Source: Sneathiella marina (GTDB lineage Bacteria > Pseudomonadota > Alphaproteobacteria > Sneathiellales > Sneathiellaceae). From it: a stretch of 64,000 bases of DNA. Positions 27,960-40,174 of this stretch are shown piece after piece. Positions within the stretch are counted from its first letter, which is position 1, and the number at the start of each line of letters is the position of its first letter. Location of the stretch: assembly GCF_023746535.1 (NCBI RefSeq), contig NZ_CP098747.1:3709501-3773500 (forward strand). The letters run 5' to 3'. Both the position numbers and the translations under genes were made by a program. Below the pieces are notes generated by a model, which was given only the letters and a program-made list of their open reading frames with translations, ran no database searches and was not told the DNA's origin.

Positions 27960-29063
27960 ATGTTTTCTTTGAAAGTAACAGGGCTGGTAAAGCATTTCGG
28001 CGACGTCAAGGCTGTGGATGGCCTGGATATGGAAGTCAAGAAGGGGGAGTTTTTTGCCCTTCTCGGCCCCAGCGCCAGTGGCAAGACGACCTCTTTCAGG
28101 TCAATTTGCGGTATTGAGAAGCCGGATGCAGGCACCGTCATAATGGATGGTCAGGATATGACCACTGCCTCTATGCGCGATCGTAATGTGGCAATGGTGT
28201 TCCAGACTTTTGCGCTCTATCCACATCTGACGATCCGCGACAATCTGGCCTTCCCGTTGAAACAACAAGGATTGGACCGAGGTGAAATTACCAAGCGCAT
28301 AGATGAGATTGGTGAATTACTGCGCCTGTCCCACACCCTGGACCGTAAGCCTGGAACCGCCAGCGGCGGAGAGCAACAGCGCATTGCCATTGGGAGGGCC
28401 CTGATCCGTCGCCCGGAACTGTTGCTGTTGGATGAGCCATTGACCAACCTCGATGCCAAGCTGCGCCATGACACGCGGGCTGAATTTAAGCGCCTTCATC
28501 GGGAACGTGGCATTACTATTGTATATGCCACACCGGACGAACTGGAGGCTCTGACTATGGGCCAGCGGATCGGTGTACTGAAAGAAGGTCGGATGGTCCA
28601 AATTGGCGAACCGGATCACCTGTATGATTTTCCTGATGACGCCTATGTCGCCGGCATGGTGGGCTCGCCGCGCATGAACTTGATCAACGCCCGCAAAAAG
28701 GGGGAGGGTTCTGGATCAACTGTTGAGGCGCCGCTGGGCGATTTCAAGAAAGGTCAGTGGAAATCAGAATTTGAAAAATTTGCGCATGGTGATGAATTCA
28801 TGTTCGGCATTCGGCCTCACGATATTGTCCCGGTTGGCTCGACCCAGGAGTTTAACGGCCCGACATTTGAAGCTGATATCCATCTGATCGAACCTTTAGG
28901 CGACGTTATCATCCTTGATCTCGTTGTAAATGGTGCCCGGCTCAAGATGGTTTTACCCGAAGAACAGGCCATTGGCTATGACGTCGGAGATCAACTCAAA
29001 TGCGGATTTGATCTTGCAACAACACACCTCTTTACCAAAGAAACCGGAACGGCCGTTAGGTAG
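27960..29063 (+). CDS. ABC transporter ATPase 1 (MalK/UgpC-like, H-loop His replaced)
   Basis: Cytoplasmic ATPase of a carbohydrate importer, 367 residues: nucleotide-binding domain followed by a TOBE-type regulatory domain. Walker A is GPSASGKT (36-43), Q-loop Q82, signature ASGGE (134-138) and Walker B LLLLDEP (D158, E159). The H-loop His expected at residue 192 is Pro (ATPDELEA). The second ATPase of the operon keeps this His but has a broken signature, so the two probably form an asymmetric heterodimer. RBS AGGTGG; 43 bp after the dehydrogenase gene. Confidence 0.92.
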   Translation: MFSLKVTGLVKHFGDVKAVDGLDMEVKKGEFFALLGPSASGKTTSFRSICGIEKPDAGTVIMDGQDMTTASMRDRNVAMVFQTFALYPHLTIRDNLAFPLKQQGLDRGEITKRIDEIGELLRLSHTLDRKPGTASGGEQQRIAIGRALIRRPELLLLDEPLTNLDAKLRHDTRAEFKRLHRERGITIVYATPDELEALTMGQRIGVLKEGRMVQIGEPDHLYDFPDDAYVAGMVGSPRMNLINARKKGEGSGSTVEAPLGDFKKGQWKSEFEKFAHGDEFMFGIRPHDIVPVGSTQEFNGPTFEADIHLIEPLGDVIILDLVVNGARLKMVLPEEQAIGYDVGDQLKCGFDLATTHLFTKETGTAVR

Positions 29064-29121
29064 GCATTTCGGAATAAATAACAACACCTACAAATCTGGA
29101 ATAAGGACAAGGAGAAAAAAA

Positions 29122-30555
29122 TTGAAAAAGCATATAAAAAAGGGAGGCGTCCTTGCATTGAGTGCAATGATGGCGACCATACTAGGAACGGCGGCCCCCG
29201 CGTCGGCGAAAGATATAGTTATTCAGATGGCAGCGCCCGACTGGAGCCCCACGCGGTTCATGCAGGAGTATGCCGATAAGACTTACAAGGCACCCAGCGG
29301 TAACAATGTTACCTTGGCTATCGACTTTATTCCTTGGCCGAGCTTCTATGAGCGTGTCGCGGCATCTATGGCATCAGGTGAGAAGAAGTATCAGCTGGTA
29401 GTGTCCGACAGCCAGTGGATCGGTACTTTCATTGAAGGCGGCCAATTCATGAAGCTGAACAAATATATAGATGCTGATCCTGAGTTGCAGAAAACACTAG
29501 CCGATGTTCACCCCGCACTGACCGAAGCTTATGCAACTTATCCATATAAGTCAGATAATATCTATGGTTTCCCGCAGATGCCGGATACCAAGGTTGCCGT
29601 ATACCGTGAAGATCTGTTCTGCAATGAAATGGAACAGGCGAATTTCAAAGCCAAGTACAGCAAGACATTGCCATGTACCTATGAAGACTGGGAAACTGTT
29701 GATTGGGAAACATGGGGCAATATCGGTGAATTCTTCCGCCGCTCTCCTGGTGATAAACTGGGAAGTGGGACGACCAACGAAGATTTTTACGGTGTCGCCT
29801 ATCAAGCCGGTAAGGGATACGACTTCTCATCCATGCAGATCAATGCGTTTATCTGGCAGAACGGTGGTGGCATTTGGGATGAATCCAAACAACCGGAAGC
29901 TCAGGCTGAAGGCGTTGTCAACTCTGCAGCAGCAGTCAAAGGCCTTGAGGAATATCTCGACCTTCTGAAATATGCCCCACCAGCCGCCAAGACCGGTCAA
30001 ATGGATATTTTCCAGATCCAGGAATTGTTCATGCAAGGCAAAATTGCCGCCATGGTCAACTGGAACGCTGTAGCGGCGGCGGCACTTGATCCGAAAAACT
30101 CCAAGGTTGCGGATAAAACAGCTTTTGCGTTGCCTCCCGGAACACCTGGCCCAGACGGTACGCTGGTCCGTTGGGACAATATCGGTGGCCAGCCCTTCGT
30201 ATTAACCACCTGGAATGATGACGAAACCGTCAAGGAATCTCTTGATCTGGTTAAATGGTGGTTGTCACCGGAAACCCAACTCGAGTTTGCTAAGAAAGGC
30301 AGCGGAAATGCCGCCATCAAGAGCGTCATGGAAATGCCTGGCTACAATGACATCAACCCCTGGAACAAAGCCCATGTTGAAGTCCTGCCCTGGCAGAAAG
30401 ACGTCTGGCATATTCCGGAATTTTTTGAGCTGTTGACACAGCAGCAAGAAGAATATGACAAAGCGATTACAGGCCAGATTTCTGCGCAGGAAGCTCTGGA
30501 CAACATTGCCAAATTCCAGCAGGAACTCCTGACGGAAGCCGGCCGTATCAATTAG
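29122..30555 (+). CDS. extracellular solute-binding protein, family 1
   Basis: Periplasmic sugar-binding component of the importer, about 477 residues. The signal peptide is clear (basic KKHIKKGG, hydrophobic core, cleavage after PASA). The mature part has family features such as GDKLGSGTTNEDFYGVAYQAG and the repeated aromatic residues of sugar sites (WQNGGGIWDE, MVNWNAV). The start is TTG 29122 with the strong site AAGGAG seven bases upstream; no upstream ATG fits. A stem-loop follows the gene. Confidence 0.92.
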   Translation: MKKHIKKGGVLALSAMMATILGTAAPASAKDIVIQMAAPDWSPTRFMQEYADKTYKAPSGNNVTLAIDFIPWPSFYERVAASMASGEKKYQLVVSDSQWIGTFIEGGQFMKLNKYIDADPELQKTLADVHPALTEAYATYPYKSDNIYGFPQMPDTKVAVYREDLFCNEMEQANFKAKYSKTLPCTYEDWETVDWETWGNIGEFFRRSPGDKLGSGTTNEDFYGVAYQAGKGYDFSSMQINAFIWQNGGGIWDESKQPEAQAEGVVNSAAAVKGLEEYLDLLKYAPPAAKTGQMDIFQIQELFMQGKIAAMVNWNAVAAAALDPKNSKVADKTAFALPPGTPGPDGTLVRWDNIGGQPFVLTTWNDDETVKESLDLVKWWLSPETQLEFAKKGSGNAAIKSVMEMPGYNDINPWNKAHVEVLPWQKDVWHIPEFFELLTQQQEEYDKAITGQISAQEALDNIAKFQQELLTEAGRIN

Positions 30556-30592
30556 TGCAGAAGTACTAGAAGTTCTTTTCCAGCGTTGGGCG

Positions 30593-30618
30593 GGGGCGCC
30601 TATGGTATCTGGCGCCCC
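30593..30618 (+). other. intercistronic stem-loop between binding protein and permease genes
   Basis: GGGGCGCC (30593-30600) and GGCGCCCC (30611-30618) make a perfect 8-bp GC stem with a 10-nt loop and no following T tract. It probably stabilises the upstream mRNA or attenuates transcription, which would give more binding protein than permease, as in malE-malF type operons. Function is inferred. Confidence 0.55.
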
Positions 30619-30654
30619 TGTCCATAGCCGGCAGACTTTATCAATTATCATTCC

Positions 30655-31590
30655 GTGAAGCTTGAGAGCTTCGCCCAGAAAAGTCGGAATATTTTAATGC
30701 GTGGATTTATGGATTGGCTAATGGACCCCAAGCGCCGGGGGCCGATGCTCGTGACACCTGCCATATTGCTGTTGTTTGTCATGAATATCTTTCCGCTGAT
30801 GTGGTCATTTGGATTGAGCTTTTTTCACTATAAAGCTTCTTCCATGAAGCCTCCCCGGTTTGCCGGTTTATATTATTATGAGAAAGTCCTAACTGACCCC
30901 GTCGTTTGGGAGCGTTTCCAAACCACCGCGCTCATTGTTAGTTTGAGCGTTTTGGTTCAGATGATCATAGGGTTTGCGCTGGCGATCTTATTTTCCAAGA
31001 AATTTCCAATGCGCCGTGAAATCCTCATGCTGATCCTGACACCAATGATGTTGTCATTTGTAGCTGTTGGCGTGTTCTTTAAACTGTTCTACGAACCAAC
31101 TTTTGGCCTCATTAGCCAGGCCTTCATGGTCTTCACCGGTGAGCCACTGGCACTATTGGCGACCAAATGGGGAGCGATTCTTGGTATTGTGATTGCGGAT
31201 GCCTGGATGTGGACACCGTTTGTGATGCTTTTGGTGCTGGCGGGCCTGGTCAGTGTCCCTAACTATTTATATGAAGCCGCAGAAATTGATCGTGCAAGTA
31301 CGTGGGAACGATTTAAGACTGTTACATTTCCTTATGTTAAAGGTCTGTTATTGCTCGCGCTTCTATTCCGTACGATTGAGACGTTTAAATTATTTGATGT
31401 GGTTTACATTATCACTGCCGGAGGACCGGGGTCTTCGACAGAGACCATAGCGGTCTATGTATACCGCATGGCCTTCCAGTTCTTCAAAACCAGTCAGTCA
31501 TCTGCGCTTTCATACATATTGCTCTTTGTGGTGATCGTGTTGACAAACCTTTACCTCTATTTTGTAAACCGTCGTGAGCAGGAGGCCTGA
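30655..31590 (+). CDS. sugar ABC transporter permease 1
   Basis: Inner-membrane subunit of about 311 residues with six helices and the binding-protein-dependent transport EAA-type loop (YEAAEIDRASTWERFKTVTFP). MalF/UgpA-like. The start is uncertain: GTG 30655 gives the longest reading but has no clear ribosome-binding site; ATG 30697 has GGAA upstream. The C-terminus lies 2 bp from the next permease start. Confidence 0.9.
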   Translation: MKLESFAQKSRNILMRGFMDWLMDPKRRGPMLVTPAILLLFVMNIFPLMWSFGLSFFHYKASSMKPPRFAGLYYYEKVLTDPVVWERFQTTALIVSLSVLVQMIIGFALAILFSKKFPMRREILMLILTPMMLSFVAVGVFFKLFYEPTFGLISQAFMVFTGEPLALLATKWGAILGIVIADAWMWTPFVMLLVLAGLVSVPNYLYEAAEIDRASTWERFKTVTFPYVKGLLLLALLFRTIETFKLFDVVYIITAGGPGSSTETIAVYVYRMAFQFFKTSQSSALSYILLFVVIVLTNLYLYFVNRREQEA

Positions 31591-31592
31591 AT

Positions 31593-32468
31593 ATGTTTGG
31601 CAGGGCTAAGAAAAAACGGGCAATTCGGGAAGCTGGTTGGGGCCATACGGTTATTTGCACAATCATAGGTCTGATTTATTTCTTCCCGGTATTGTGGATT
31701 ATCCTGACCGCTTTCAAGACACGTCAAGATGCGTTGGCAACACCGCCGTCCTTCCTGTTTACGCCGACACTCGATAATTTCCTTCGTGTATTTTATCGAG
31801 TGACGACAGATGGTGAACAGTTGTCGACCGGTATGGGATTGTTTTTCTTTAATTCGATTTTTATTGCGGGTGCCGGTGTGCTATTGGCTCTGATCGTCGG
31901 AACAATGGCGGCTTATGGCTTCTCTCGTTATCCGCTTAAAGGAAATGATACCTATCTGTTTGTCATCCTGACGACACGTATGCTGCCACCGATCGTTGTG
32001 ATTGTGCCAATATTTCTGATGTTCCGCATCACGGGACTCAGCGGCAGCTACATCGGGATTATTTTGCTCTACGCCATGTTCAATCTGGCATTCAGTGTCT
32101 GGATGATGAAAAGCTTCTTCGATGAGCTGTCCACAGATGTGGAGGATGCCGCGCGGCTGGAAGGTGCCAGTGAATGGAAGGTCTTCTTCAAGATATGTAT
32201 TCCGCAGTTGAAGGCCGGTTTGGCCGCAACGTCTGTCTTTGCACTGATCCTGACCTGGAACGAATTTCTGTTTGCATTACTGTTGACGGGCAGTGATACC
32301 CGGACGGTACCTGTGGCCATGGCCCGTTCCATGGGCGGTCAGCTTGGCGTCGACTGGGGATTGCTTGCCGCAATCATCACTCTGTTCCTGATACCTGTGT
32401 TCATCGTCACTTATGCTTTGCAGAACCATCTACTGCGCGGCGTCACCTTCGGTACAGTTAAAAAGTAA
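31593..32468 (+). CDS. sugar ABC transporter permease 2
   Basis: MalG/UgpE-like inner-membrane subunit, 291 residues, six helices. The EAA loop VEDAARLEGASEWKVFFKICIP (two parts of the conserved coupling helix) contacts the ATPases. AGGAGG in the end of the upstream permease gene precedes the ATG, indicating coupled translation. Confidence 0.92.
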   Translation: MFGRAKKKRAIREAGWGHTVICTIIGLIYFFPVLWIILTAFKTRQDALATPPSFLFTPTLDNFLRVFYRVTTDGEQLSTGMGLFFFNSIFIAGAGVLLALIVGTMAAYGFSRYPLKGNDTYLFVILTTRMLPPIVVIVPIFLMFRITGLSGSYIGIILLYAMFNLAFSVWMMKSFFDELSTDVEDAARLEGASEWKVFFKICIPQLKAGLAATSVFALILTWNEFLFALLLTGSDTRTVPVAMARSMGGQLGVDWGLLAAIITLFLIPVFIVTYALQNHLLRGVTFGTVKK

Positions 32469-32478
32469 GGCGTAAAAA

Positions 32479-33567
32479 ATGGGTTCTATTAGAGTTGAAA
32501 ACCTGACGAAACGATTTGGCGATCTCGTCGCCGTCAATGCTGTCGATATGACGATCGAGGAGGGCGAGGTGTTATGCCTTCTCGGCCCGTCAGGATGTGG
32601 TAAGACGACCACTTTACGCATGATAGCTGGGTTGGAGCAAGAAACTGAAGGAGATGTCTATATTGGCGGGAACCTCGCCAACGATTTGTCACCTTCGGAG
32701 AGAGATATCTCCATGGTATTCCAGTTTTATGCCTTATATCCGACTTTAACGGTAGCAGAGAATATCGCGTTTCCCTTGCGGTCAGAAAGCTCTAGTGCCG
32801 AAGAGATTAAGGTGCGTGTCATGGAGGTTGCGCGTGCTCTGCAATTGCAGGACGTTCTGAATCGCACACCCGGACAACTGGGTGAAGGAGAAAAACAGCG
32901 CGTCGCGGTAGCACGGGCGATTGTGCGCGACCCAAACTGTTTTCTGTTTGATGAACCGCTCAGCCGCCTTGATGTGACTTTACGGCAAACCATGCGCGGT
33001 GAAATCAAGGAAATCCTCAACAGCCTGTCCAAAGCAACGGTTATTGTAACACATGATCAGTTGGAGGCATTGACCATGGCGGATCGGATTGCTGTGATGC
33101 GTCAAGGCAATATCGAGCAAATTGCAACACCGCACGAAATTTTTACACAGCCAGCCAATTTGTTTGTTGCCGGCTTCATTGGGACACCGTCAATGAACCT
33201 CCTACCGGGCATCTTGCGGACCTATTCAGACGGGATTGCAACCTTTGAGCTTTGCGGTCAGCAGATCAGCCTGAAAGTCGATCCAGCTGTTGCTAACCTT
33301 TCTCCGGGATCAGCTGTCACCATAGGAATTCGCCCCCGGGCCTTTAAATTGGAAACAACGGAGACGAATGTCGGTATCGCCGTAGAGGTAGATTTGATTG
33401 AACCTATGGGCGCTGAAACGCTTATTCACACGCTTGCCGGAGACACGGACATTCGAGTGGTAATCAATAGAACTGAAAAAGTCTCCGTTGGTGATCGCGT
33501 GAGAATTGTCAGCAGACCAGACCAAAATCTGGTTTTCGACCAGTCAGAAAGGTTGGTATTGTCATGA
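32479..33567 (+). CDS. ABC transporter ATPase 2 (degenerate signature motif)
   Basis: Second cytoplasmic ATPase of the importer, 362 residues with a C-terminal TOBE-type domain. Walker A GPSGCGKT (36-43), Q82, Walker B D158-E159 and H192 (VTHDQ) are all intact, but the LSGGQ signature reads LGEGE (134-138). This is the mirror image of ATPase 1. In a heterodimer one composite site would combine intact elements of both chains and the other the two defects. The stop overlaps the next start (ATGA). Confidence 0.92.
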   Translation: MGSIRVENLTKRFGDLVAVNAVDMTIEEGEVLCLLGPSGCGKTTTLRMIAGLEQETEGDVYIGGNLANDLSPSERDISMVFQFYALYPTLTVAENIAFPLRSESSSAEEIKVRVMEVARALQLQDVLNRTPGQLGEGEKQRVAVARAIVRDPNCFLFDEPLSRLDVTLRQTMRGEIKEILNSLSKATVIVTHDQLEALTMADRIAVMRQGNIEQIATPHEIFTQPANLFVAGFIGTPSMNLLPGILRTYSDGIATFELCGQQISLKVDPAVANLSPGSAVTIGIRPRAFKLETTETNVGIAVEVDLIEPMGAETLIHTLAGDTDIRVVINRTEKVSVGDRVRIVSRPDQNLVFDQSERLVLS

Positions 33568-34828: not shown

Positions 34829-35350
34829 ATGCCTGTTCTGATGATGTCGGCTGGCGGTTTGGTTTTACTTGCAGCTATCTGGGATTTATTTTCCCGGCGC
34901 ATCCCAAATCTATTACCACTCATCATAGCCGCACTGTATTTGATGCATTGCGTTTATACCTCAGCATGGTCGGATATGCCGTGGCATCTTTTGACAGGTG
35001 CGGGCGTCCTCGTCGTGGGCATAGTAATATTTTCTTTTGGCTGGCTCGGGGGCGGAGATGTCAAATTGCTCGCAGCCCTGGCACTTTGGGCCGGTCCCGA
35101 CCATCTTATTTTGCTCCTATTAATCACTGGTGTCGGAGGTGGACTTTTAGCGGTTCTGTATGTGCTACCTGCGATTCTTGCCAAAAACCCGGCGGTGTCC
35201 AGCAGCATAGATTGGATATTTACCCGGATTTTGAAAAGGCCCGCACCAATGCTTATGGCGTCCAATTCGCAAGGGCTACAATTACCTTATGGTGTAGCAA
35301 TCGCGATTGCCGGGTTCGCTGTATTCTATCAGATTTCCGGCGGAATTTAG
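34829..35350 (+). CDS. A24 family prepilin peptidase (CpaA/TadV-like)
   Basis: Membrane aspartyl protease of 173 residues. The two catalytic Asp lie in AIWDLFSRRIPN (about residue 19) and GGGDVKLLAALALW (about residue 76); short form without the N-methyltransferase domain, as in Tad/Flp pilus systems. No pilin or Tad genes are in the window, so its substrate is encoded elsewhere. RBS AAGGA. Confidence 0.9.
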   Translation: MPVLMMSAGGLVLLAAIWDLFSRRIPNLLPLIIAALYLMHCVYTSAWSDMPWHLLTGAGVLVVGIVIFSFGWLGGGDVKLLAALALWAGPDHLILLLLITGVGGGLLAVLYVLPAILAKNPAVSSSIDWIFTRILKRPAPMLMASNSQGLQLPYGVAIAIAGFAVFYQISGGI

Positions 35351-35746: not shown

Positions 35747-36784
35747 TTAGGCAAGGTGATCATTTGCTTCTTCAGGTAAGTTGGGTACCTGCCCAGCATC
35801 AATTGAGGCGGGTCCCCCAATTGAAAGATAAGCAATACGTTTCCTTTCCCGCCTGCTTCTTGTGACGGAATCCAGAATAAATCCGCAAGCCAGAAACAAA
35901 AAAGACAGCAGCATAGAAGCGCTGGAAAGCACAGCCGTCGGCAGTCGCGGCACAAGACCTGTTTCCAGATAGGTGATTGCCAATGGAAAGGACAAAATTA
36001 GAGAGGTTGCCGAAAAGACAAGGAACAGCCATCCGAAAAAAGTCATCGGGCGCTCGTCCTTTATCAATTTCACAATCAGTTTCGAGATTTTCAAACCATC
36101 CGAAATTGTGTTCAATTTACTGTCGGAGCCTTCCGGGCGTTCAAGGTAAATACTGGATATTTCGGCAACCGGCATATTCAACTCAAGTGCGTGAATTGTA
36201 AGCTCCGTCTCAATTTCAAAACCTTCGGACAGTATTGGAAAGGATTTTACAAACCTTCTTGAGAACACCCGGTATCCCGTTAGTATATCATCAAACCTTC
36301 GCCCAAAAACGCCAGCGACTAGTGCGGTGAACATTTTGTTGCCCAGCACATGGCCCTTTCTGTAAGCCGAATCCATCGACGCTTCACGTTTTCCGCAAAC
36401 CATATCAAGGCGTTGTTCTAAAAGGTGAGAGACAAGCTTAGGGGCAACTGCGGCCTCATAAGTCGCATCCCCATCAACCATGACATATACATCGGCTTCT
36501 ATATCTGAAAACAGCCGTCGAACGGCATTTCCTTTTCCAGGCATGGATTCAAATATAACGTCAGCACCTGCCGCACGCGCCTTATTGCTGGTTTGATCAG
36601 TTGAAACATTATCGCAGACGACAATGCGGGCGTGAGGCAAGGCCTTTTTAAAATCTTCAACCACCGTTGAAATGGTTTTCTCTTCATTGAAACACGGAAT
36701 CATCACCGCAATAGAAGGCATCACCAGCCCATCGATACCCGCCGATGTCATACCCTCCTTACTGATAGCTTCACTTTGGTTCAC
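35747..36784 (-). CDS. family 2 glycosyltransferase, polyprenyl-phosphate sugar synthase-like
   Basis: A 345-residue GT-A fold enzyme on the inner membrane face: VMIPCFNEEKTISTVV at residues 27-42, the DxD motif in VMVDGDATYE, and DDILTGYRVFSRRF. Two C-terminal helices (about residues 248-310) resemble DPM1/GtrB/ArnC-type synthases that load a sugar on undecaprenyl phosphate. Its start overlaps the stop of the upstream membrane glycosyltransferase gene by 4 nt. Confidence 0.9.
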   Translation of the reverse strand: MNQSEAISKEGMTSAGIDGLVMPSIAVMIPCFNEEKTISTVVEDFKKALPHARIVVCDNVSTDQTSNKARAAGADVIFESMPGKGNAVRRLFSDIEADVYVMVDGDATYEAAVAPKLVSHLLEQRLDMVCGKREASMDSAYRKGHVLGNKMFTALVAGVFGRRFDDILTGYRVFSRRFVKSFPILSEGFEIETELTIHALELNMPVAEISSIYLERPEGSDSKLNTISDGLKISKLIVKLIKDERPMTFFGWLFLVFSATSLILSFPLAITYLETGLVPRLPTAVLSSASMLLSFLFLACGFILDSVTRSRRERKRIAYLSIGGPASIDAGQVPNLPEEANDHLA

Positions 36785-38592
36785 TGTTTTAAAGCCTTAT
36801 ATTCAAATAACCGCCAGGGCTTTGGCACCTTTACTTCTGACAATTCAGGCGGCAAGTTCCCTGATAGCAACCGAGTATAGAATATAGACGCATCCTCCGC
36901 CTCTTGATAGTACCAACGCTCTGCAGCATTGGGACATAGTAAAATATAGTCAATGTCATATTTTAACAGCAAAGATTCACTTACCTTATATTCTGTCGCT
37001 GTAAGCAGAGAATAAGAATCGAAAATTGCATCTCCATTCCTGTGGTACGGCACGGCTAGAAAATGATGCTGGGTTCGATACATGAGTTCTGGCCCACGAT
37101 CTATGTTATTGGTGAACCTGAGGTTATTTCGACCGCCAATGAAATCCTTGTCAGTTAAGAAAGCCGTGATATCAAAGATATCACATTTTTCGGTGTCACC
37201 TTCGATGGAAGCCTCAGCCTCCTTGGTTTCAAATGCTTTTGTTATATTTCCGACAAGTATCGCTAAGCAAAATGGGCCAACTATGAAGATACCTCTCACG
37301 AAAAAACCGCTCATGCCCTTCCTCCAACCCGCGAATTTTTCATTTACCCATGTTATAAGATTGTCGATCAATGGACCCGCTGCAAAGACAGCCACGACGG
37401 TGAGATAGAGGCTCGCACGAATATGCGCTAAAGCAAGGGCACCAGTGCAAATTAACAGCAACGTTATCCACACCCAAACTTGTCGGCGTTCCGACGGCAA
37501 TCTACCAAAAAGGATTAGACCGCCATAAACAATTCCGGCCATGGGCAATAAGCAATAAAGGGTGACCAGCTTACCGCTTATGAACAAAGGGGTCATTTCA
37601 GAAACCTTGTCATGCCAAATGGGGTTTATTCGCGGATCAGCCTCAGCCATCGGGCCTATAAACAAGTCCGGTAAGAAGATTGCTATGATTGAAAAACTCA
37701 CCACTCCGAATGCTATTGTTCCGAAACAACGCCTTACCAGTTGATCGGTGTTGTCCAAGAATTTCGCGCAGACCGTCCAGAACAAAACAGGGCAGGCAAC
37801 GAGAAATAGCTGGGCGACTGTCAGTCGATCGTAGCGGTCAGCCAGAAACTCAGAAAAAGGTGTGTCGAGAATCAAACCAATCGCACAAAGCCCCAAAACT
37901 CCGATTGCGAAATTACGATTGGCCAAACGCCACGGCTTGCCCCAAATCAACCAGCAAATGCCCAGGCCGATTGTCAATGGAACGTAAACAATCAAAAACT
38001 CCAAGCTGATCCATATTCCCAATCCGGTCAATATGCCTGCCAATAAAGCGAATTTTGCCGAAAATGTTGGATTGCTGGCGCGAACCAGGCAGCCCAAGAC
38101 TGCGGCCATAAGCGCCGCGAGAACCGCATGATGATCTATCCTGCCGATCCCTAAATAACTATGTAACGCCGGTTGTGCGGCGATGAGCAAAGCCACCAGC
38201 AATAGATTCTGGGTCTGCATTAAGGGCATTATGGCCCAAAGTACAAGTATGACGAGGAGCAACGACATCAAAGCCGGCATAAAAATTCCAGCCAATTCGA
38301 ATGCAGCTCTATCGCTCATAAATGGCCGGATAGGTGCTGCAAGGGTCATGATCAAAACATCCATGGGGCGCGTCCAGTGAATGTCAGCCCCCTCCCCGGC
38401 GCCCGCCCGCTCTATTTTGTTGTCATACCAATTCCCGGTTTCTGCCAGAATATTCACACGTTCCAGCCGCATGTAGGAATCCGGTCCATTGGGCTCAAAA
38501 TTTCGTGAGCTGTCACCCATTTGTAAGGGCAGCACAATAAAACACACGAGCCAAAGTGCGATGACAAGGAATATTCGCTCTAGGGTCAACAT
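36781..38592 (-). CDS. GT-C membrane glycosyltransferase with STT3-like catalytic motifs
   Basis: A 603-residue protein with about 12 helices followed by a soluble C-terminal region from about residue 455. First external loop: GPDSYMRLE with D38; second: IGRIDHH with D153 and H155; fifth-loop-like KVSEMTP with E332. Spacing matches the metal-binding Asp, Asp-x-His and Glu of archaeal AglB/STT3 oligosaccharyltransferases. The WWD sequon-binding motif is absent. Likely transfers a lipid-linked glycan in the periplasm; the acceptor is unknown. Confidence 0.75.
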   Translation of the reverse strand: MLTLERIFLVIALWLVCFIVLPLQMGDSSRNFEPNGPDSYMRLERVNILAETGNWYDNKIERAGAGEGADIHWTRPMDVLIMTLAAPIRPFMSDRAAFELAGIFMPALMSLLLVILVLWAIMPLMQTQNLLLVALLIAAQPALHSYLGIGRIDHHAVLAALMAAVLGCLVRASNPTFSAKFALLAGILTGLGIWISLEFLIVYVPLTIGLGICWLIWGKPWRLANRNFAIGVLGLCAIGLILDTPFSEFLADRYDRLTVAQLFLVACPVLFWTVCAKFLDNTDQLVRRCFGTIAFGVVSFSIIAIFLPDLFIGPMAEADPRINPIWHDKVSEMTPLFISGKLVTLYCLLPMAGIVYGGLILFGRLPSERRQVWVWITLLLICTGALALAHIRASLYLTVVAVFAAGPLIDNLITWVNEKFAGWRKGMSGFFVRGIFIVGPFCLAILVGNITKAFETKEAEASIEGDTEKCDIFDITAFLTDKDFIGGRNNLRFTNNIDRGPELMYRTQHHFLAVPYHRNGDAIFDSYSLLTATEYKVSESLLLKYDIDYILLCPNAAERWYYQEAEDASIFYTRLLSGNLPPELSEVKVPKPWRLFEYKALKQ

Positions 38593-38740: not shown

Positions 38741-39511
38741 TTATTCAAGACGGATAGAAACGGTCCCCAAATTCGAGAAATCCGCGACAACAAGATCGCC
38801 GGAATTTCCTGCGACAACTTTTGTCGTCAAACCGGTCGAAACCCAATCGCCAGCCTTCAAGTGCAAATCCCGGGAAATAAGATGATTACAAAGCCAACAC
38901 AGAATATTAAGCGGCCCACCTATAACATTTCCGCCATTCCCCTCTGCGACAATATCTCCATTAATGGATAGTCGTGTGGATTGGGACTGCAAATCCAATG
39001 CCCGCCAATCTTCCTGCAACTCTCCCGGAATAAAGGCGTGATTGGCACTTCCATCTGCAATCGTCCATGCTATCCCGACACCAAATTGTCGATCAAAACG
39101 AGAATCGACTATTTCGACGGCCCCGGCCACACCCGCAATCGCCGCACAAACTTCAGGCACGGAATACTCATGCTCCTTGGGCCGTAAATCACGTGCCATC
39201 AAGAATGCAAACTCTGGTTCCAGTACGCGCATGGCATTTTTCGGTGTTTTAACGGTTTCCCCGGACGCATACATGCAAGGCTCAAAAATCGGGCCTGCAA
39301 TGGGTTCTTCAATTTGAAGAGCTTCCTGTCCCGCTTTAGATGTTGCACCAACTTTCCATCCTCGAACCGGCCAGGCTACTTGCGCCATATATTCGGCTTG
39401 CAGGTCATAACTATCGTCAATGCTGAGTGGTAGGGCGGAGACATCTAAATCGATATGCTCCCCCCGTGTTTTAGCGCGTGCAAGCTGTGCGACAATCGAT
39501 TGATGATCCAT
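38741..39511 (-). CDS. 2-keto-4-pentenoate hydratase family protein
   Basis: A 256-residue member of the fumarylacetoacetate hydrolase-like family (MhpD type), which hydrate 2-hydroxypentadienoates or decarboxylate 4-oxalocrotonate. It has GWKVGATSKAGQEALQI, the metal-site segment VLEPEFAFLMARDL and the C-terminal AGDWVSTGLTTKV. No aromatic meta-cleavage genes are in the window, so the substrate is open. Transcribed alone. Confidence 0.87.
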   Translation of the reverse strand: MDHQSIVAQLARAKTRGEHIDLDVSALPLSIDDSYDLQAEYMAQVAWPVRGWKVGATSKAGQEALQIEEPIAGPIFEPCMYASGETVKTPKNAMRVLEPEFAFLMARDLRPKEHEYSVPEVCAAIAGVAGAVEIVDSRFDRQFGVGIAWTIADGSANHAFIPGELQEDWRALDLQSQSTRLSINGDIVAEGNGGNVIGGPLNILCWLCNHLISRDLHLKAGDWVSTGLTTKVVAGNSGDLVVADFSNLGTVSIRLE

Positions 39512-39754: not shown

Positions 39755-40174
39755 TCATTCCTTGGTAACAAGACCTTCATCGCGTGTCGTTACCGCCCCG
39801 GCAGCTGGGGCAGCACTGGCCAAAGCTTCATCCACCTTTTCGCAAATTTCTGATAATGTAAAAGGTTTTGCAATCACATCGTGGATTAAGCTGTCCAAAT
39901 TATGCGCACGCTGCCTCTCCGCCGCATATCCGGTCATCATCAATATCTTCAGTTTCGGATTTTCTTTTGTGACTTTCAACGCCAATGCAATACCGTCCAT
40001 AATGGGCATCATGATATCTGTCAGGAGGAGGTCAAAAGTTGGGTCTTTCGCCAGCATATCCAGGGCAACGGCGCCGTCTTCCGCGACACTGACTTCGTGA
40101 CCATGATGGGTTAAAGCACGGCTCACAAATTCCCGAAGAGCGCCTTCATCTTCTGCAACTAAAATGCGCGCCAT
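39755..40174 (-). CDS. cpdR: response regulator CpdR
   Basis: A single-domain receiver of 139 residues with phospho-acceptor D53 (LTDIMMP), acidic pair ED at 8-9, Thr in MMTGYA and Lys in IAKPF. The start MARILVAEDEGALREFVSRAL and overall layout match CpdR, which in Caulobacter links the CckA-ChpT phosphorelay to ClpXP proteolysis. A longer tail after residue 119 (rich in Ala) is present. Lies 13 bp after hpt on the same strand. Confidence 0.9.
   Translation of the reverse strand: MARILVAEDEGALREFVSRALTHHGHEVSVAEDGAVALDMLAKDPTFDLLLTDIMMPIMDGIALALKVTKENPKLKILMMTGYAAERQRAHNLDSLIHDVIAKPFTLSEICEKVDEALASAAPAAGAVTTRDEGLVTKE

Follow-up and report, generated by a model that had tools for sequence, protein, structure and literature searches.

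The stretch of DNA analyzed here (the window: 64,000 nucleotides of Sneathiella marina, NZ_CP098747.1, assembly GCF_023746535.1) carries a gene for a GT-C glycosyltransferase, P0001, which forms a three-gene cassette with genes for a GT2 glycosyltransferase and a small flippase-like protein. The open reading frame of P0001 is a genuine gene, and its product is a GT-C protein homologous to AglB, the archaeal oligosaccharyltransferase (OST). An earlier note, made from the sequence alone, had described an STT3/AglB-type GT-C enzyme that keeps the metal-site residues, has no WWD sequon pocket and might use a different acceptor. Our analysis agrees with this description, the different acceptor being probable. 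The features of the locus are collected in Table 1.

Table 1. Features of the GT-C locus, with positions in the window
Feature	Position	Strand	Basis
Prepilin peptidase (CpaA-like), downstream border, convergent	34829..35350	+	PF01478, synteny, empty site
SMR/EamA protein, ArnE/ArnF flippase-subunit-like, 117 residues	35360..35713	-	NF002816, NF011625; EamA above cut-off
GT2 glycosyltransferase, AglJ/DPM-like	35747..36784	-	TIGR04182, PF00535 (above cut-off), PDB matches
AglB/STT3-like GT-C glycosyltransferase, 603 residues	36781..38592	-	Open reading frame (start ATG, 603 codons), alignment A1, AglB profile match
C-terminal core N496-N519: WWDYG replacement (N-I-D-R-G) and PYHRN	37036..37107	-	hmmsearch to 3vgp/3vu0, column counts
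R392 codon, aligned to AfAglB R426	37417..37419	-	36/36, alignment
E332 codon (KVSE), equivalent to E360 in TIXE/SVSE	37597..37599	-	36/36, aligned to TIXE Glu
D153-H154-H155 codons, counterpart of AfAglB D161-H162-H163 (metal site)	38128..38136	-	34/36 per column, aligned to DHH
D38 codon, G-P-D of the first external loop, counterpart of AfAglB D47	38479..38481	-	36/36 conserved, aligned
FAA-hydrolase-type protein, between response regulator and GT-C gene	38741..39511	-	Pfam/NCBIfam matches
Response regulator, upstream border	39755..40174	-	Synteny, empty site; name from sequence reading, no family search

The GT2 and GT-C reading frames overlap by 4 bases. In ten loci fetched from the genus, the GT2 gene comes after the GT-C gene in nine and the flippase-like gene is present in seven, the rest ending at the contig end. 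These were compared with nine fetched loci that lack the GT-C gene (eight from the genus and one from the family), and two of the nine (L106 and L107) have an empty site, in which the flanks lie 41 and 67 bp apart and the three genes are jointly absent. No close prepilin peptidase gene was seen in the fetched stretch of the other seven. The model nearest to the GT2 protein is TIGR04182 for AglJ, the haloarchaeal dolichyl-phosphate hexose synthase (E 6.5e-62), yet its score of 209.5 bits is lower than the cut-off of 325. Its PDB matches include glucosyl-3-phosphoglycerate synthase (E 1.2e-8) and dolichol-phosphate mannose synthase (5mlz, E 3.3e-7). The flippase-like protein matches the ArnF model NF002816 (E 7.6e-12) and the ArnE model NF011625 (E 5.7e-8), both below cut-off, and has no match in the PDB up to E 1.

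Homology to AglB and conservation of the metal-site residues

When P0001 was used as the only query, no match was obtained in Pfam up to E 1 and no meaningful match in a phmmer search of the PDB. The STT3 model PF02516 had no match in the whole S. marina genome or in any of the 36 family members, P0001 included, and the GT-C family lies outside Pfam coverage. For the comparisons below, P0001 was aligned with 35 relatives, partial, interrupted and near-duplicate sequences being excluded (alignment A1, 36 members). The NCBIfam model of archaeal OSTs, TIGR04154, matches P0001 weakly (E 1.8e-8, 33.2 bits against a cut-off of 450), so that P0001 is not above cut-off in either of the curated OST models, and the same model matches 25 of the 36 members at E≤0.1. 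The Pfam AglB-core model matches four members, the best at 0.004. At E≤0.1, 12 of the 36 are also matched by NF047440, the putative glycosyltransferase family LA_3751/LA_3752, presumably of Leptospira; P0001, however, reaches 19.6 bits where the cut-off is 200, over residues 100-240 only.

Profile comparison gave a much clearer relationship. Alignment A1 against a template of Archaeoglobus fulgidus AglB (AfAglB) and Halocatena AglB, a haloarchaeal AglB encoded on a Halocatena plasmid and matching 3waj and 5gmy, scored 84.7 (E 3.7e-10) over residues 33-418, with 60 column shuffles at or below 24.4, and AfAglB singly scored 66.5 (E 5.8e-8). When the family was compared with Halocatena AglB by hhalign, the E-value was 1.7e-5 in one run and 3.7e-6, with a score of 55.1, in another. 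For the score of 55.1, 60 block-shuffled versions reached 26.6 at most and the reversed sequence 14.2. From the same plasmid, a haloarchaeal GT39 protein scored 23.5, which is shuffle-like, and four other membrane proteins scored 18.5 or less.

These controls bear on whether P0001 is an ArnT/PMT-type transferase (GT39/GT83), in which the DHH and the Glu would be a chance resemblance. The genomic set-up, with a GT2 gene and a small flippase gene, is that of ArnT or Gtr systems and would suit such an enzyme. However, the PMT and ArnT Pfam models match none of the 36 members at E≤0.1, the one GT39 control stays at the level of shuffles, and the alignment with AglB spans residues 33-418. PF13231 (PMT_2) had no match in the S. 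marina genome at E≤0.001. A closer kinship to ArnT or PMT, the outcome that the earlier note had set against its own reading, was thus not seen: TIGR04154 matches most of the members that the PMT and ArnT models miss, and the score is 23.5 for GT39 against 55.1 for AglB. We regard an ArnT/PMT-type enzyme as extremely unlikely.

The two-template alignment pairs D38 with D47 of AfAglB, D153 with D161, H155 with H163, E332 with E360 and R392 with R426. Single-residue pairings were read by eye from the printed alignment, and that of D38 with D47 rests on the two-template alignment together with conservation. D38, E198, E332 and R392 are invariant in all 36 members; D153, H154 and H155 are each retained in 34, and the DHH string as a whole in 33. 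The earlier note had placed D38, D153-H154-H155 and E332 (in KVSEMTP) in this reading frame, and all of them are found there, their conservation speaking against a chance occurrence. It had also named the AglB ligands correctly, since D47, D161 and H163 are given as metal ligands in PMC8342417, where E360 joins via water and the motif is Asp-His-His. The family has two features of the OST class, the pair of DXD-type motifs in external loops 1 and 2 (D47 and D161-x-H163 in AglB) and the Glu of TIXE/SVSE in external loop 5. Family-averaged hydropathy gave 21 fragments above threshold, which may be read as about 13 clusters; OSTs have 13 transmembrane helices. In PglB and in yeast STT3, the donor pyrophosphate is contacted by an Arg, R375 and R404 respectively (PMC7226087), and R392 may play a role akin to that of this phosphate-binding Arg. 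E198 (codon 37999-38001) has no acidic counterpart that we could see in AglB, and from its conservation it is a candidate for a family-specific catalytic or sugar-binding residue.

C-terminal domain and loss of the sequon motif

STT3, AglB and PglB are familiar as catalysts of protein N-glycosylation at N-X-S/T sites. Their WWD motif binds the Ser/Thr at position +2 (PMC7226087). In the GT-C family no member has WWD within the C-terminal 170 residues (0/36), as the earlier note had observed for P0001, and the single member that contains WWD has it in the first loop. DGGK was found in none of the 36 either, the double-sequon form of the lipid-linked oligosaccharide motif not being searched. Loose patterns of the Ser/Thr pocket, counted without regard to position, occur in two members (D..K...[MI]) and in five (M..I).

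In P0001 the C-terminal domain starts at residue 455 and is 149 residues long, the family range being 126-169. The earlier note had called it short, which holds; it is not a different domain, however, as its core matches the globular domain of AglB. The family profile matches two solved structures of this domain from paralogues of AglB in Archaeoglobus, 3vgp at E 2.7e-6 and 3vu0 at E 5.1e-6, and the profile stretch tdldygPel is aligned with SWWDYGNWI of both. When the alignment was relaxed and extended past residue 418, D498 and G500 coincided with the Asp and Gly of WWDYG, which is replaced in the family by a stretch often reading [D/N]-x-G-P-E-L. After this stretch the family has a motif of its own, PYHRN, in which Y516 is conserved in 35, H517 in 33 and R518 in 32 of the 36 members (exact PYHRN in 16, YHR in 29); at a guess from the alignment, it may lie near the position of the donor-linked motif of OSTs.

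Taken together, P0001 resembles AglB (GT66; structures 3waj and 5gmy) in its homologous transmembrane region, in the five paired residues and in the matched core of the C-terminal domain. It differs from AglB in its length (603 against 875 residues), in the absence of WWDYG, DGGK and an equivalent of R154, and in its gene neighbors. With the WWD pocket lost, an N-X-S/T asparagine should not serve as the acceptor, and we consider such a site unlikely.

The same domain bears on a second explanation, that P0001 is a protein glycosyltransferase which passes a polyprenyl-phosphate sugar or a short glycan to Ser/Thr or to Asn outside N-X-S/T, the changed C-terminal core forming a new peptide pocket. 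The closest relatives are protein transferases, the peptide-binding core of AglB is still recognizable, YHR is retained in most members, and in those genus loci that extend far enough the cassette lies next to a prepilin peptidase gene. On the other hand, the C-terminal part lacks WWD and DGGK in every member, and the prepilin peptidase gene is convergent and persists in both empty-site genomes, so it is a flank and not a shown partner; we set it aside as a clue to pilin glycosylation for this reason. A protein transferase seems to us a serious but secondary possibility.

Distribution of the family and its gene partners

Relatives of P0001 were found in 46 of the 289 sampled genomes of the Alphaproteobacteria (three of the 46 via short matches only), so that the family is no rarity in this class. 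Across the phylum, the family profile has a match at E≤1e-10 in 54 of 398 genomes, and four of the 54 come from outside the class. The relative in the Sneathiella record L001 is 53% identical to P0001. Viral contigs, scanned for patterns taken from four family members, yielded no relative, and no paper on such a bacterial family appeared among the titles and abstract openings listed, the subscription literature lying mostly outside this search. The GT-C gene occurs in tandem copies, some of them small, in L050, L062, L063, L065, L066 and L067. On a plasmid of Sphingomonas parapaucimobilis it is annotated as an AcrB/AcrD/AcrF family protein (L118:8543-10312), apparently a misnomer, and has no Pfam match at E≤0.01.

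Within the genus the distribution is patchy (11 of 24 genomes, S. marina counted; 15 of 60 relatives overall), and a few matches of the class search contain an internal stop, as might be expected of a degenerate or inactive relative. The four invariant columns are nevertheless kept among aligned members whose identity to P0001 is as low as 18%, and we give hardly any credence to degeneration.

The association of the GT2 and GT-C genes was examined across the class. The GT2 gene (E≤1e-40) is present in 54 of the 289 genomes, and it co-occurs with GT-C in 26 against 8.0 expected (Fisher 1.6e-11, three weak GT-C hits dropped) or, with these hits included, in 28 (Fisher 1.2e-12). The statistic is inflated by shared descent, and both genes are found in one genome in 16 taxonomic families. 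We also fetched 40 loci outside the genus from the places found. A GT2 and/or GtrA gene lies within 3 kb of GT-C in 13 of them, one (L054) being weak. All seven GT2 hits fall within 3 kb and none farther, though 335 of the 560 kb lies farther; the seven include two same-genus pairs, and only genus sequences went into the GT2 profile. The gene order GtrA-GT2-GT-C was seen in L081. On the Novosphingobium plasmid MBES04p1, genes for a flavin adenine dinucleotide (FAD) oxidoreductase, GtrA and GT-C are consecutive, with GtrA, methyltransferase and GT2 genes opposite, and in S. parapaucimobilis divergent GtrA and methyltransferase genes stand beside GT-C. Other neighbors are mixed (FAD oxidoreductase, PAP2, peptidase, hydrolase) in the part of the 40 loci in which neighbors were scanned.

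Several further genes were observed around the GT-C gene. In S. marina, the FAA-hydrolase-type protein is nearest to the HpaH/2-oxopent-4-enoate hydratase models, below cut-off; no match was found at this position in the ten genus loci compared, and the protein is probably outside the glycosylation system. A methyltransferase-like gene lies between the GT2 and flippase genes in L087 (10034-10750), L090 and L092 (Pfam was run on L087 only), and in L088 such a gene follows GT2 at the contig end; it is absent from the S. marina window. An amine-oxidase-like FAD protein, which might modify the sugar on its lipid, is encoded upstream, together with GtrA and GT-C, in L046, L047, L049 and L050, where it falls into one cluster, and in L117 (2361-3944); the Pfam search covered L046 and L117. 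Finally, positions 28930-33567 of the window read, from the open reading frames only, as genes of a sugar-type ATP-binding cassette (ABC) transporter (binding protein, two permeases and ATPase) followed by a GntR-like regulator.

Proposed function of the cassette

We think it likely that the GT-C protein is the transfer step of a multi-component periplasmic system which uses a polyprenyl-phosphate sugar, with a GT-C of the AglB class and an acceptor other than N-X-S/T, for which a hydroxyl group on a surface glycan or glycolipid seems the likeliest. First, the GT2 protein would synthesize the lipid-phosphate sugar by attaching a single sugar to undecaprenyl phosphate on the cytoplasmic side. 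Second, the ArnE/F-like protein would flip the lipid-sugar to the periplasm. Third, the AglB-class GT-C would move the sugar onto the acceptor, with a metal held by D38, D153 and H155 and with E332 and R392 assisting. The computations show the AglB homology, the retained metal-site residues, the missing WWD, the three-gene cassette and the statistical link to GT2, whereas we infer the donor lipid, the single sugar, the flipping, the use of a metal and the direction.

ArnC/E/F/T is a multi-component transmembrane glycosylation system, and flippases of the ArnE/F kind serve lipid-phosphate single sugars. The same is stated for the GtrA kind in PMC8035078, where GT2, small flippase-like and GT-C genes stand in one operon in GtrA-GtrB-Gtr and CsbB-YfhO-GtcA, as they do in our cassette. 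The family shares with these systems a GT2 gene together with GT-C (26 of 43 GT-C genomes) and a small flippase-like gene, ArnE/F-like in the genus and GtrA in some other lineages. It differs from them in that the GT-C is of the AglB class and not ArnT, YfhO or Gtr. The operon with an AglJ/DPM-like GT2 and an ArnE/F-like flippase points to a single sugar on a lipid monophosphate, not an oligosaccharide. An AglB-class GT-C may well work in a Gtr/Arn-like way, because the donors of euryarchaeal OSTs are lipid monophosphates (PMC8342417) and AglJ of Haloferax adds the first sugar onto dolichol phosphate (PMC4335974).

These flippases also bear on whether P0001 is a true PglB/AglB-like OST, attaching to N-X-S/T an oligosaccharide that has been preassembled on a lipid carrier. 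The metal site and the TIXE-like Glu are kept, R392 is aligned with the region of PglB and STT3 whose Arg contacts the pyrophosphate, and an AglJ-like GT2 adjoins, all of which such an enzyme would share. Against it stand the absence of WWDYG and DGGK, the rarity of both loose pocket patterns and flippases of kinds that serve lipid-phosphate single sugars, and we judge a true OST very improbable.

Here, we need to consider the observations that weigh against our proposal. Taken separately, the first 130 and the last 164 residues score no better than shuffles when compared with Halocatena AglB alone; the N-terminus aligns, D38 to D47, once the two-AglB template is used. R154 of AglB is named among the metal-site residues (PMC8342417), and P0001 has no Arg counterpart to it seven residues ahead of the DHH Asp. 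The AlphaFold models, with predicted local distance difference test values of 45.8 for P0001 alone and 38.0 for P0001 with one relative, were too poor and were discarded, so that they provide no fold. The top PDB match of the GT2 protein, glucosyl-3-phosphoglycerate synthase, is no lipid-sugar synthase, and neither the GT2 nor the flippase-like protein reaches the curated cut-off of its nearest model, AglJ or ArnE/F. Since GT2 at E≤1e-40 was not found in 17 of the 43 GT-C genomes and 28 of the 54 GT2 genomes are without GT-C, the partners are not fixed. In 27 of the 40 loci from outside the genus, no GT2, GtrA or SMR flippase gene was found within 3 kb. As the GtrA profile derives mainly from GT-C neighbors, its count tilts toward our proposal, and its 8 of 8 is circular except for L047, L071 and L074, which lie outside the training set.

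For the acceptor, a surface glycan or glycolipid is in our judgement somewhat likelier than a protein. An LptA-like protein is encoded near the L065 copies and an ABC transporter beside the L062 copies, which are hints of lipopolysaccharide, but the other neighbors, as noted above, are mixed. It is doubtful that lipid A is the only acceptor, because the GT-C family also occurs in Sphingomonas and Novosphingobium and sphingomonads are not known to have lipopolysaccharide. Wzy_C/O-antigen ligase genes, tried as another clue to the acceptor (E≤1e-3), are present in seven of nine genus genomes with GT-C and in two of nine without it, S. marina having none and 3 of 18 being above cut-off, and nothing was drawn from this.

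A bolder form of our proposal is doubtful at present but worth stating: the large, unnamed alphaproteobacterial AglB/STT3 branch might combine with a small flippase and an AglJ-like synthase into an archaeal-type lipid-monophosphate glycosylation module, in which the sequon pocket has been replaced to suit acceptors of a new class, perhaps a novel kind of protein glycosylation site. If the proposed function is true, the OST class would be linked to the three-component systems of the Gtr/Arn type, and genes now labeled as hypothetical proteins or, apparently wrongly, as AcrB/AcrD/AcrF family proteins would gain a function. The enzyme would also be a possible tool for the placement of single sugars in the periplasm, and a widespread bacterial branch that keeps the metal-site residues but has no sequon pocket would show how one GT-C scaffold shifts between acceptors.

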